Assembly: GCF_040538665.1 (NCBI RefSeq)
Contig: NZ_JBEWXT010000001.1
Location: forward strand, 3,436,501 to 3,500,500
Length of the DNA stretch: 64,000 nt
Reading direction: 5' to 3'
Origin: Aureibaculum sp. 2308TA14-22
Lineage (GTDB): Bacteria; Bacteroidota; Bacteroidia; Flavobacteriales; Flavobacteriaceae
Part shown: piece after piece, positions 38,943 through 40,541 of the stretch
Layout: each line of letters begins with the position of its first letter
How positions within the stretch are numbered: the first letter of the stretch is position 1
Notes under the pieces: generated by a model
Databases searched by the model: none
Told to the model about the DNA's origin: nothing
What the model saw: the letters and a program-made list of their open reading frames with translations, nothing else
Translations under genes and position numbers: made by a program

Positions 38943-39407
38943 ATGGCAGTCAAAAGTTTTCAAGGCAAAAGATCTCAACCGCAAAAAGATGAATTAAAAC
39001 CAGCTTTAGTATCTGATTATATGACTACAAAGTTGATTACTTTTAGACCGGAACAACCTGTATCTGAAGTAGTGGAGTCATTAATTAAGAATAGAATATC
39101 TGGTGGGCCAGTAGTTGATGAAAATAACGAATTACTCGGTATTATTTCTGAAGGAGATTGTATAAAACATATTTCAGAAAGCAGATATTACAATATGCCA
39201 ATGAATAATAATACTGTCGATAAGCACATGGTTAAAAATGTAGATACAATTGATGGTAATCTGAATATTTTTGAAGCTGCGGATATGTTTTTAAAAGCCA
39301 AGCACAGACGTTTTCCTATTGTTGAAAATGGCAAGTTAGTAGGTCAAATAAGTCAAAAAGACATTCTAATTGCTGCGTTAAAGCAAAAAGGGCAAAACTG
39401 GAAGTAA
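38943..39407 (+). CDS. CBS-domain pair protein
   Basis: A 154-residue protein consisting of two CBS motifs: residues about 25-80 (VSDYMTTKLITFRPEQPVSEVVESL ... GGPVVDENNELLGIISEGD) and about 95-150 (VDKHMVKNVDTIDGNLNIFEAADMFL ... RRFPIVENGKLVGQISQKDIL). CBS pairs bind adenosyl compounds and act as energy sensors. No attached catalytic domain, so its client is unknown. It is followed by the small-RNA-like region, whose first hairpin lies 25 bases after the stop. Confidence 0.88.
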   Translation: MAVKSFQGKRSQPQKDELKPALVSDYMTTKLITFRPEQPVSEVVESLIKNRISGGPVVDENNELLGIISEGDCIKHISESRYYNMPMNNNTVDKHMVKNVDTIDGNLNIFEAADMFLKAKHRRFPIVENGKLVGQISQKDILIAALKQKGQNWK

Positions 39408-39425
39408 TTCTACAAAAATCTACAT

Positions 39426-39452
39426 AAAAAAAGCCCCGCTCTTCAGCGGGGC
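39426..39452 (-). terminator. Rho-independent terminator of small RNA copy A
   Basis: Arms GCCCCGCT (39433-39440) and AGCGGGGC (39445-39452) with a 4-base loop. On the minus strand the hairpin is followed by seven U. It may also stop the CBS gene transcript from the other side, though the plus-strand U-run is weak. Confidence 0.8.
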
Positions 39453-39680
39453 AATTTTCTCTAACTAAACTATCAACTTAAACTAATTCTTATTATTTTT
39501 TATGATTAAAATTTCTCTTAATCCCTCTAATGAGGATTCCTTAATTTGGGGAGAAAGGAGATAAAGTTTTAATGGTATTAACTTTTCATTTTTATAATTA
39601 AATTTCCACTTATTACGACTGAAGTAATGTTTGTTTCGCTACTTCAATTATAAAACAATTTGCTAGATAAAGTTCCCCCT
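39426..39680 (-). ncRNA. Candidate structured small RNA, copy A
   Basis: This is one of two tandem related units in a 786-base stretch without protein genes. Read on the minus strand it starts at GGGGGAAC just after a TATCTTTT box (39683-39690). It folds into a stem (plus-strand arms TTTTATAATT 39590-39599 and AATTATAAAA 39646-39655) with an inner hairpin TGAAGTA/TACTTCA (39620-39626, 39640-39646). It continues through CTCCTTTCTCCCC and a conserved block (39455-39490), and ends in a hairpin with seven U. Copy B shares all these parts. Relative to copy B, an extra 50-60 bases near 39491-39545 contain a small inverted repeat (AATCC/GGATT). No coding frame is conserved between the copies. Confidence 0.6.
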
Positions 39681-39682
39681 AA

Positions 39683-39690
39683 AAAAGATA
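39683..39690 (-). promoter_or_regulatory. Candidate -7 box of small RNA copy A
   Basis: Minus-strand TATCTTTT differs from TAnnTTTG only at the last base and is followed by TTAGGGGGA. Copy B has TACTTTTT followed by the same TAGGGGGA. Confidence 0.4.
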
Positions 39691-39910
39691 AATTTTTTCA
39701 ATAAATTTTTTAAAATACTGATTATCAATTAAATATATTTTAAAATAATTTTATAACTGAAGTGTATTATGTAGTATAGATTATTTTTTGAGGGTTAAAA
39801 TAGAAACCAAAGAAAGATAAATGGAGCTGAATATATTCTTAACTTAATTATTAAGTAATAGTAAGAAAAATGATTTTTTAGAATTAGATATTTTAAATCT
39901 TTTTTTAAAC

Positions 39911-39937
39911 AAAAAAAGTCCTGCTTTTCGGCAGGAC
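39911..39937 (-). terminator. Rho-independent terminator of small RNA copy B
   Basis: Arms GTCCTGC (39918-39924) and GCAGGAC (39931-39937), loop TTTTCG, followed by seven U on the minus strand. The stem differs almost entirely from that of copy A yet stays paired. Confidence 0.8.
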
Positions 39938-40118
39938 ATTTTTCTCTAACTAAACTATCAACTTAAACTAATTCTGTCTTTTTTCTGGGGAGAAAGGAGA
40001 TCAGATTTTAACGGTATGATTGTTTTCTTTTTTCATAGCAATTTTCCCGTTTTCGACTGAAGCATTGTTTGTAATTGTGCTTCGAATATGAAACAATTTG
40101 CTATGAAAAACTCCCCCT
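39911..40118 (-). ncRNA. Candidate structured small RNA, copy B
   Basis: A second unit with the same order of parts. The predicted 5' end is GGGGGAG. A perfect 13-base stem pairs TTTTTCATAGCAA (40029-40041) with TTGCTATGAAAAA (40098-40110). The inner hairpin TGAAGCA (40058-40064) / TGCTTC (40078-40083) differs from copy A by a paired T-A to C-G change. The closing pair is GGGGAG (39987-39992) with CTCCCC (40111-40116). The conserved block CTCTAACTAAACTATCAACT and onward lies before a U7 terminator. An 11-codon ATG frame exists in this copy only, so coding is unlikely. It might be a known flavobacterial RNA class (for example 6S-Flavo or flavo-1); I cannot tell. Confidence 0.6.
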
Positions 40119-40119
40119 A

Positions 40120-40127
40120 AAAAAGTA
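40120..40127 (-). promoter_or_regulatory. Candidate -7 box of small RNA copy B
   Basis: Minus-strand TACTTTTT, a near match to TAnnTTTG, directly before TAGGGGGAG. Confidence 0.4.
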
Positions 40128-40193
40128 AAGTATTTATTAAATTATTTATAGATAACTGATAATCAAAATTTTAACAAGGAATTAAATTTAAAA

Positions 40194-40541
40194 TTATTCA
40201 TTTTTAACTAATAAGTAAAAATCATTATCAAGAGGAAGATAACCTTGATCGTAAACGTAATAATAAGTATTACCTGTTTTTGTAGTATAAATAGAAGTAA
40301 AGAAATTAAAATCAAAATTATGGTCTAACAATTTGGCTCGCGTCACTTTTGTTTTTCCGGTGGTGTTAAGGTCTGATAATGTTTTATAATTTCTGCGTAA
40401 GCGATTATTGGTGTTTCTAATTAGGTTTTTACTATCTCTGTTCACTTTGTTGTTAAAAGCGTTACGGCAGTAATCAGAACAGAACTTTTTATCTTGTCTC
40501 CCTATTATTTTTGCTCCACATTCAGGGCATAGTTTTTCCAT
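40194..40541 (-). CDS. Zinc-ribbon protein of unknown function
   Basis: A 115-residue protein with an N-terminal zinc ribbon C5-P-E-C8 and C21-SDY-C25 (CPECGAK...KFCSDYCRNAFNNK). The middle is basic (RRNYKTLSDL), and the C-terminal half is aromatic-rich (FDFNFFTSIYTTKTGNTYYYVYDQGY). The zinc ribbon resembles the small DUF2116-type zinc-binding motif. The basic segment might bind nucleic acid. It is the nearest gene upstream of the tandem small RNAs on the same strand. No precise function can be given. Confidence 0.75.
   Translation of the reverse strand: MEKLCPECGAKIIGRQDKKFCSDYCRNAFNNKVNRDSKNLIRNTNNRLRRNYKTLSDLNTTGKTKVTRAKLLDHNFDFNFFTSIYTTKTGNTYYYVYDQGYLPLDNDFYLLVKNE

Follow-up and report, generated by a model that had tools for sequence, protein, structure and literature searches.

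The window, that is, the whole stretch of 64,000 nucleotides analysed here, holds two units in tandem on its minus strand, where the first-pass annotation had placed them. A 154-codon gene on the plus strand (38943-39407), CBS-domain-like by eye, lies on one side of the pair and a 115-codon gene on the minus strand (40194-40541) on the other, and no reading frame of at least 60 codons overlaps the units. Unit 1, designated B-type, is a candidate small RNA of about 255 nt (39426-39680), and unit 2, designated M-type, is a candidate of about 210 nt that extends from its 5' AGGGGGA to the U-run of a terminator (39909-40118, with the 3' end at about 39909). Both units contain, as had been described, AGGGGGA, an inner hairpin, CTCCTTTCTCCCC, a 30-base block that is identical in the two, and a U7 terminator, and all the parts located below are on the minus strand. 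The inner hairpin spans 40052-40086 in unit 2 (TTCGAAGC ... GCTTCAGTCGAA) and 39614-39649 in unit 1 (TGAAGTA/TACTTC), and the swap from TGAAGTA/TACTTC to TGAAGCA/TGCTTC, a compensated change of T-A to C-G, proved to be real. A stretch named M (GGGAAAATTGCTATGAAAAA) is found at 40029-40048 in unit 2 (G000:C1:3476529-3476548, G000 being the window's own genome), and a stretch named B (GTAATAAGTGGAAATTTA) at 39599-39616 in unit 1. The ATCTCCTTTCTCCCC strand, whose CCCC is the proposed partner of the 5' GGGG, is placed at 39987-40001 in unit 2 and at 39548-39562 in unit 1. The 30-base block, named T, occupies 39940-39969 in unit 2 (AGTTTAAGTTGATAGTTTAGTTAGAGAAAA, with a conserved 21-mer core) and 39455-39484 in unit 1, and the terminator stem with its U7 lies at 39911-39937 and 39426-39452, respectively. 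The two terminator stems had been reported to differ almost fully, but by eye only two compensated pairs (C-G to T-A) distinguish them, GCCCCGC/GCGGGGC against GTCCTGC/GCAGGAC.

Four terminator-like sites were found where 0.2 were expected, and two of these, both minus-strand, fall where the units end. The fold of each unit was better than all of its 200 dinucleotide shuffles, with z of -3.7 for unit 1 and -3.2 for unit 2. Judged by the terminators and the spacing, the units would be transcribed as separate small RNAs. Since two copies alone prove little, the case rests on the wider family.

The wider family and its consensus fold

A BLAST search with unit 2 found relatives in the genus Aureibaculum, and the M block was present in contigs of Aureibaculum marinum, A. 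luteum, and A. flavum, among others. A covariance model built from 20 copies, R1, matched the core of unit 2 (39974-40118) with 153.5 bits and that of unit 1 (39535-39680) with 124 bits. Across the genus, it gave 36 matches in 14 of 17 genomes, including all 11 of good quality (completeness of 90% or more, contamination of 5% or less). The 36th match (G015:C142) is identical to the copy in G015:C135 and both are at contig ends, so they are probably one copy, and there would be about 35 copies in all. Between two and five matches were found in 12 of the 14 genomes, and a single one in G011 and in G014; array copies are adjacent to one another wherever contigs allow, and at L034 and L040 the array is flanked by genes resembling those on both sides in the window. 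The mark of multi-copy siblings was taken to be at least two homologous small RNA genes per genome, and such genes were found. When 299 Flavobacteriaceae genomes, two of them from the genus, were searched with R1 under stricter filters that may lose weak matches, those two genomes were recovered together with one weak match in the remaining 297. The latter, in G028 (38.7 bits, E of 7.7e-4 for one genome), coincides with a protein gene start; it has no significance once all 299 genomes are counted, and it was discarded. We regard it as moderately probable, jointly with the sponge explanation given below, that the array family is limited to the genus Aureibaculum and tandemly multiplied, with the two units as paralogous members.

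In the consensus fold that we propose, the 5' GGGG would pair with CCCC, and an inner hairpin and a short stem around a large loop would be followed by block T and the terminator. The statistics on this fold were computed on 35 of the 36 R1 matches (34 of them distinct), in an alignment that was fitted to the structure and is biased in its favour. Standard pairs filled 83.5% of the cells, against 43-57% for slid partners. Change on both sides was observed in 8 of the 17 pairs, a number that 2 of 500 shuffles reached, and the slid versions gave up to 5. The covariation score of 0.149 compares with an average of 0.113 in the shuffles (sd 0.008); none of the 500 shuffles scored as high, and the slid versions remained at or below 0.081. 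The core of the inner hairpin (helix 4) was paired in 100% of the cells over the 34 distinct rows, with both-side change in two of its five pairs, and the loop-closing helix 5 was paired in 68.3% of the cells, with both-side change in four of five. Helix 1 (GGGG/CCCC) was paired in 94.9% of the cells with no both-side change, and helix 2 in just 51.5%. The GGGG/CCCC pairing was predicted by RNAalifold on 29 copies and is absent from the single-sequence folds of both units; the loop-closing stem is present in the single fold of unit 1 and absent both in that of unit 2 and in the default RNAalifold consensus. The genus-wide family and the fold statistics support what the annotation had proposed from the two copies, namely a conserved structured RNA with tandem paralogues.

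In the single-sequence fold of unit 2, M is base-paired to the 5' strand of that same unit. The segment 40098-40110 of this strand reads TTTTTCATAGCAA, which is the core of the X small RNAs described below, and folds onto M in cis; by eye, it is mostly unconserved in the other copies.

Complements of M and B at other loci

The place of the large loop is taken by M (GGGAAAATTGCTATGAAAAA) or a close form of it in 25 of 35 copies, and by B in the other ten. When reverse-complemented, the M of unit 2 (GGGAAAAUUGCUAUGAAAAA) is identical to the linker in two predicted small RNAs of about 75-80 nt, here called X. In the window's own genome, the X pair (L057, G000:C1:1738200-1738421) is situated between a gene that is dnaJ-like by eye and rnpB, and at each X site the anti-M linker stands between a 5' hairpin and a terminator, with a TAnnTTTG box upstream. 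A tandem X pair adjoining rnpB-like sequence was detected in 15 of the 17 genus genomes, and none was detected in G014 and G016 (79% and 86% complete) within the stretches and mismatches searched. With at most two mismatches on either strand, the M/X 21-mer occurred in 130 of the 299 Flavobacteriaceae genomes, a count that takes in M sites and some places other than X genes, and the control pattern, read backwards, gave 4 hits. X resembles a small RNA gene: among 40 M/X-type sites in the 30 loci listed, 36 have TAnnTTTG 20-75 nt upstream (no chance rate was computed), 36 sites of the same set have a hairpin and a T-run downstream, and 10 are near rnpB-like sequence. The presence of a 5' hairpin, as scored in all 40, was too lax to discriminate. 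In the six loci scanned, no Rfam family covering X was found. In four loci, three of them from Polaribacter, X-like genes have a different terminator stem by eye.

TAnnTTTG is given as the sigma-A -7 box in PMC9723704. The promoter-like box ascribed to the array units by the first-pass annotation did not hold up as a consensus, with TAnnTTTG within 35 nt upstream in none of 34 units. Unlike the X sites (36 of 40), the array units are without the sigma-A box, and so they would have a promoter of another kind or be tightly controlled. CAG at -42 to -40 was seen upstream of 19 of 33 array units in a post hoc count (the preset window gave 1 of 33), and, with the missing TAnnTTTG, it hints at a different or regulated promoter.

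When M units were compared with the X linker of their own genome, the longest exact complement had a median of 20 nt and was at least 14 nt in 22 of the 25; the other three, one L047 copy and both G009 copies, match X over just 9-12 nt. Changes in M that break the pairing are found in one L047 copy and in the L037 and G009 copies; in four M copies, A has changed to G and the pairing persists as G-U. Both X linkers of the window's own genome are unpaired in the predicted folds. With RNAduplex, unit 2 and the first X gave -35.0 kcal/mol, an energy that none of 200 shuffles equalled; for unit 2 and the second X, 2 of 200 shuffles matched the real pair. Unit 1 with either X was no better than shuffles (120/200 and 100/200). 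Complementarity as extended as that looked for in an RNA sponge was found in this genome, with partner RNAs that are themselves predicted.

Searched genome-wide with at most one mismatch, TTGCTATGAAAAA showed no enrichment, and mRNA targets of X through start-site complements were rejected for want of an excess (42 places, against 38 for the reversed pattern). Among the 30 of these 42 places that were listed, two are in X, two in unit 2, and 26 elsewhere. A near match to TTGCTATGAAAAA lies at an apparent gene start in L162. The motif CUCCUUUCU, which we take to resemble the 3' end of the Bacteroidota 16S rRNA, was considered as an anti-Shine-Dalgarno mimic, and this reading was dropped because the corresponding place reads CUUC in L048 and CUCA in one L034 copy.

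The alternative stretch, B (GTAATAAGTGGAAATTT), is carried by ten copies in five genomes. Its exact 16-base complement was found at one unlinked place in each of these five genomes and at none in the other 12, of which nine have M-type copies only and three (G001, G006, and G016) gave no array match. At one mismatch, six further places in unrelated contexts were found; with up to one mismatch allowed, the reversed control gave ten hits, and the B/anti-B signal therefore lies in the exact matches. The anti-B locus of the window's own genome is L181 (G000:C1:2215435-2215680), and a BLAST search with it gave matches in those five genomes only. By eye, the locus has a TAnnTTTG box, a hairpin with the anti-B loop, a second hairpin, and a terminator, and the loop of the second hairpin contains TTCATAGCAA, the core of anti-M; the single-sequence fold of the anti-B RNA shows these hairpins in part only. 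RNAduplex gave -51.6 kcal/mol for unit 1 with anti-B, and 3 of 200 shuffles were as good, while unit 2 with anti-B was no better than shuffles (111/200). Complements between B units and X did not exceed 8 nt.

The exact complement of B with anti-B measures 18 nt in the window's own genome, 20 nt in G007, G008, and G010, and 17 nt in A. marinum. Against the foreign anti-B of G007, G008, and G010, our B unit matches over 19 nt, one more than against its own, and the match of the A. marinum unit is 20 nt, three more than with its own. Foreign matches being as long or longer, there is no sign of co-adaptation of B with anti-B, and interlocus covariation between them was sought and not found. The five genomes may form one clade sharing one ancestor, and the co-occurrence of B and anti-B may then be a single shared gain.

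Block T also occurs outside the array. In the window's own genome, the exact 21-mer core of T was found at three places: in unit 1, in unit 2, and in another terminator-ended RNA, L004 (G000:C1:2882294-2882446). The latter is a predicted small RNA that has both block T and GGGAAAATTGCTAT, and the gene from which it diverges resembles an ECF sigma factor by eye. Six loci of this block-T RNA were fetched, and GGGAAAATTGCTA is carried in five of them (L004 and L049-L052, not L053). A T-like place was also found in L043 outside the units, and GGGAAAATTGCTA was not found in that locus. RNAduplex of the block-T RNA with either X was no better than shuffles (44/200 and 89/200). Beyond the three known places, the complement of T was found once, with 3 mismatches, and since this place is inside a 452-codon reading frame, no partner of T was found. 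We infer that T is bound by a protein or acts as a short seed for a target.

Proposed pairing partners and alternative readings

Computation thus yielded an apparently undescribed family of structured small RNAs, with the two array units as neighbouring genes, much of the family's fold, and long matching complements to two classes of predicted small RNAs. We favour, with moderate confidence, the reading that the tandem siblings would be transcribed and would act as specific partners, probably sponges, of other predicted small RNAs, pairing with them in the cell in the direction from sponge to X. Against this reading stand the lack of a TAnnTTTG box upstream of the array units, the missing co-adaptation between B and anti-B, the three M units with short matches to X, and the proposed stems that the single-sequence folds do not contain. 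The large loop would serve for pairing, and each copy would have either of two specificities: the counterpart of M-type copies would be the exposed linker in the short X RNAs, and that of B-type copies the loop of the separate anti-B RNA. Several copies of the complement could hold X and anti-B, lifting their effect on other transcripts, and block T may bind a protein or a target. X looks older, since it is present in genomes without any array match to R1, and this favours the array as the sponge; with many genomes of this kind, X would presumably act on other targets, and the array would have been added later.

A broader proposal, which we offer tentatively, is that of a lock-and-key network, in which duplication would have split the array into paralogues with mutually exclusive M or B, each matched by X or anti-B. 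Anti-B, with its second loop against the M core, could bridge both, and an older, family-wide X would have acquired a genus-specific sponge system tuned by copy number.

The direction may instead be the reverse, the array RNAs being regulators with M or B as their seed, and X and anti-B being their sponges or antisense inhibitors. We judge this rather unlikely, even though the array RNA has a conserved body of its own and block T, and a second RNA shares T plus M in most of the loci read. X-like sites are also seen before terminators 3' of genes and in a multi-site locus, and anti-B was found only alongside B, as expected of an inhibitor made for B. The presence of X across the family in R1-negative genomes, as determined by the stricter-filter search, argues against a reversed direction, since X would have another role there.

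Less probable still is that M is a protein site or a structural element, and that its complementarity to X reflects the common descent of a sequence block and not pairing. M and X are nearly invariant, so that most positions are uninformative on covariation, and the equal or better fit of B to foreign anti-B RNAs is compatible with descent. However, B, which differs from M, is matched by a complement of its own in the genomes that carry it, and both the unpaired X linkers in the predicted folds and the retention of G-U pairs after A-to-G changes speak for pairing.

It is very improbable that the array units are a 6S-type RNA or belong to another family already in Rfam. The annotation had suggested 6S-Flavo or flavo-1, the latter presumably the name of an Rfam family, and the closed 5'-3' architecture and the length of about 210-255 nt would fit a 6S-type RNA. 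Nevertheless, a scan of the whole window with all 4227 families of Rfam 15 gave nothing at the gathering score, and 6S-Flavo and flavo-1 were absent among the 23 matches of a lax scan of 39300-40300 (E up to 10). The best of these sub-threshold matches (E of 0.037) covers the 3' block and terminator of unit 2; STnc370, STnc480, and the other weak matches are below gathering, the best ones being at terminators, and were taken as chance. The genome has its own 6S-Flavo (RF01685), above cut-off, at G000:C1:795701-795824. This is likewise a structured RNA, but it lies at a separate locus and the array units do not match RF01685; with no match in the window and the genome's own 6S-Flavo elsewhere, the units are not 6S-Flavo. 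In the open-licence literature, we found no paper on Aureibaculum small RNAs or containing the string CATAGCAATTTT, and a description elsewhere is possible. Finally, a type I toxin-antitoxin array, in which the AUG in M (within AUGAAAAA) would start a small toxin and be covered by X as the antitoxin, is almost certainly wrong, as the 25 M units give 18 different frame outcomes, many of 5-18 codons and with no common sequence, one M copy has no AUG, and B units have no M.

Related systems and further M- and X-like loci

Small RNA biology in the Bacteroidota is described as less charted than in Proteobacteria or Firmicutes in PMC11697453, which also treats FopS/GibS of Bacteroides, small RNAs marked by an R1 seed sequence of their own, and reports that FopS has 14 copies and represses susC-like mRNAs near the start codon. 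The likeness to the array lies in the same phylum, in multi-copy paralogous small RNAs, and in their being part of an RNA network; the array copies differ from FopS in being tandem, genus-limited, and matched to predicted small RNAs, a distinction made by description and not by sequence. The Caulobacter sponge (PMC12559287) is similarly proposed to sequester a small RNA through complementary sequence, whereas here two specificities are found on paralogues of one tandem array and the activity is a predicted one. Among the Flavobacteriaceae, 85 newly described Rfp RNAs of Flavobacterium psychrophilum are reported in PMC9723704, and these, e.g., Rfp18, which is marked by its sequence and by pairing of its third stem-loop with protease mRNAs, are likewise without a known family. 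X could correspond to an Rfp RNA. If the sponge reading is true, the Flavobacteriaceae gain a widespread small RNA, X, and one genus provides a natural experiment in which the copies of one array took on two orthogonal specificities of pairing, with a partner for each, so that the birth of a new RNA-RNA specificity becomes directly testable.

L055, L064-L066, L262, L263, L267, and L271 have multiple CATAGCAA-type sites, which are X-like when read in the same sense as the upstream reading frame. L055 had been considered as an M-type sponge, and this was rejected because its relatives show the X-like strand continuing from the upstream reading frame; it is more likely an X-like RNA with several sites. 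In L252 and L253, an M-like GGGAAAATTACTATGAAAAGG is followed, by eye, by a hairpin with a T-run whose loop holds TTGCTAT or TGCTAT. An exact M was seen in another genus (L129, in G253); it lies between two reading frames, the gene downstream of it is lipoprotein-like by eye, and this may be an mRNA partner of X. In four genomes (L254-L256 and L265), an X-like sequence with a terminator lies shortly 3' of what appears by eye to be the same protein gene, and these are possible X RNAs derived from 3' ends. Also in another genus, L123 and L124 (G297 and G072) contain two to four adjacent X genes sharing a GGTAGGAGCCCTCCTACC-like 5' hairpin.
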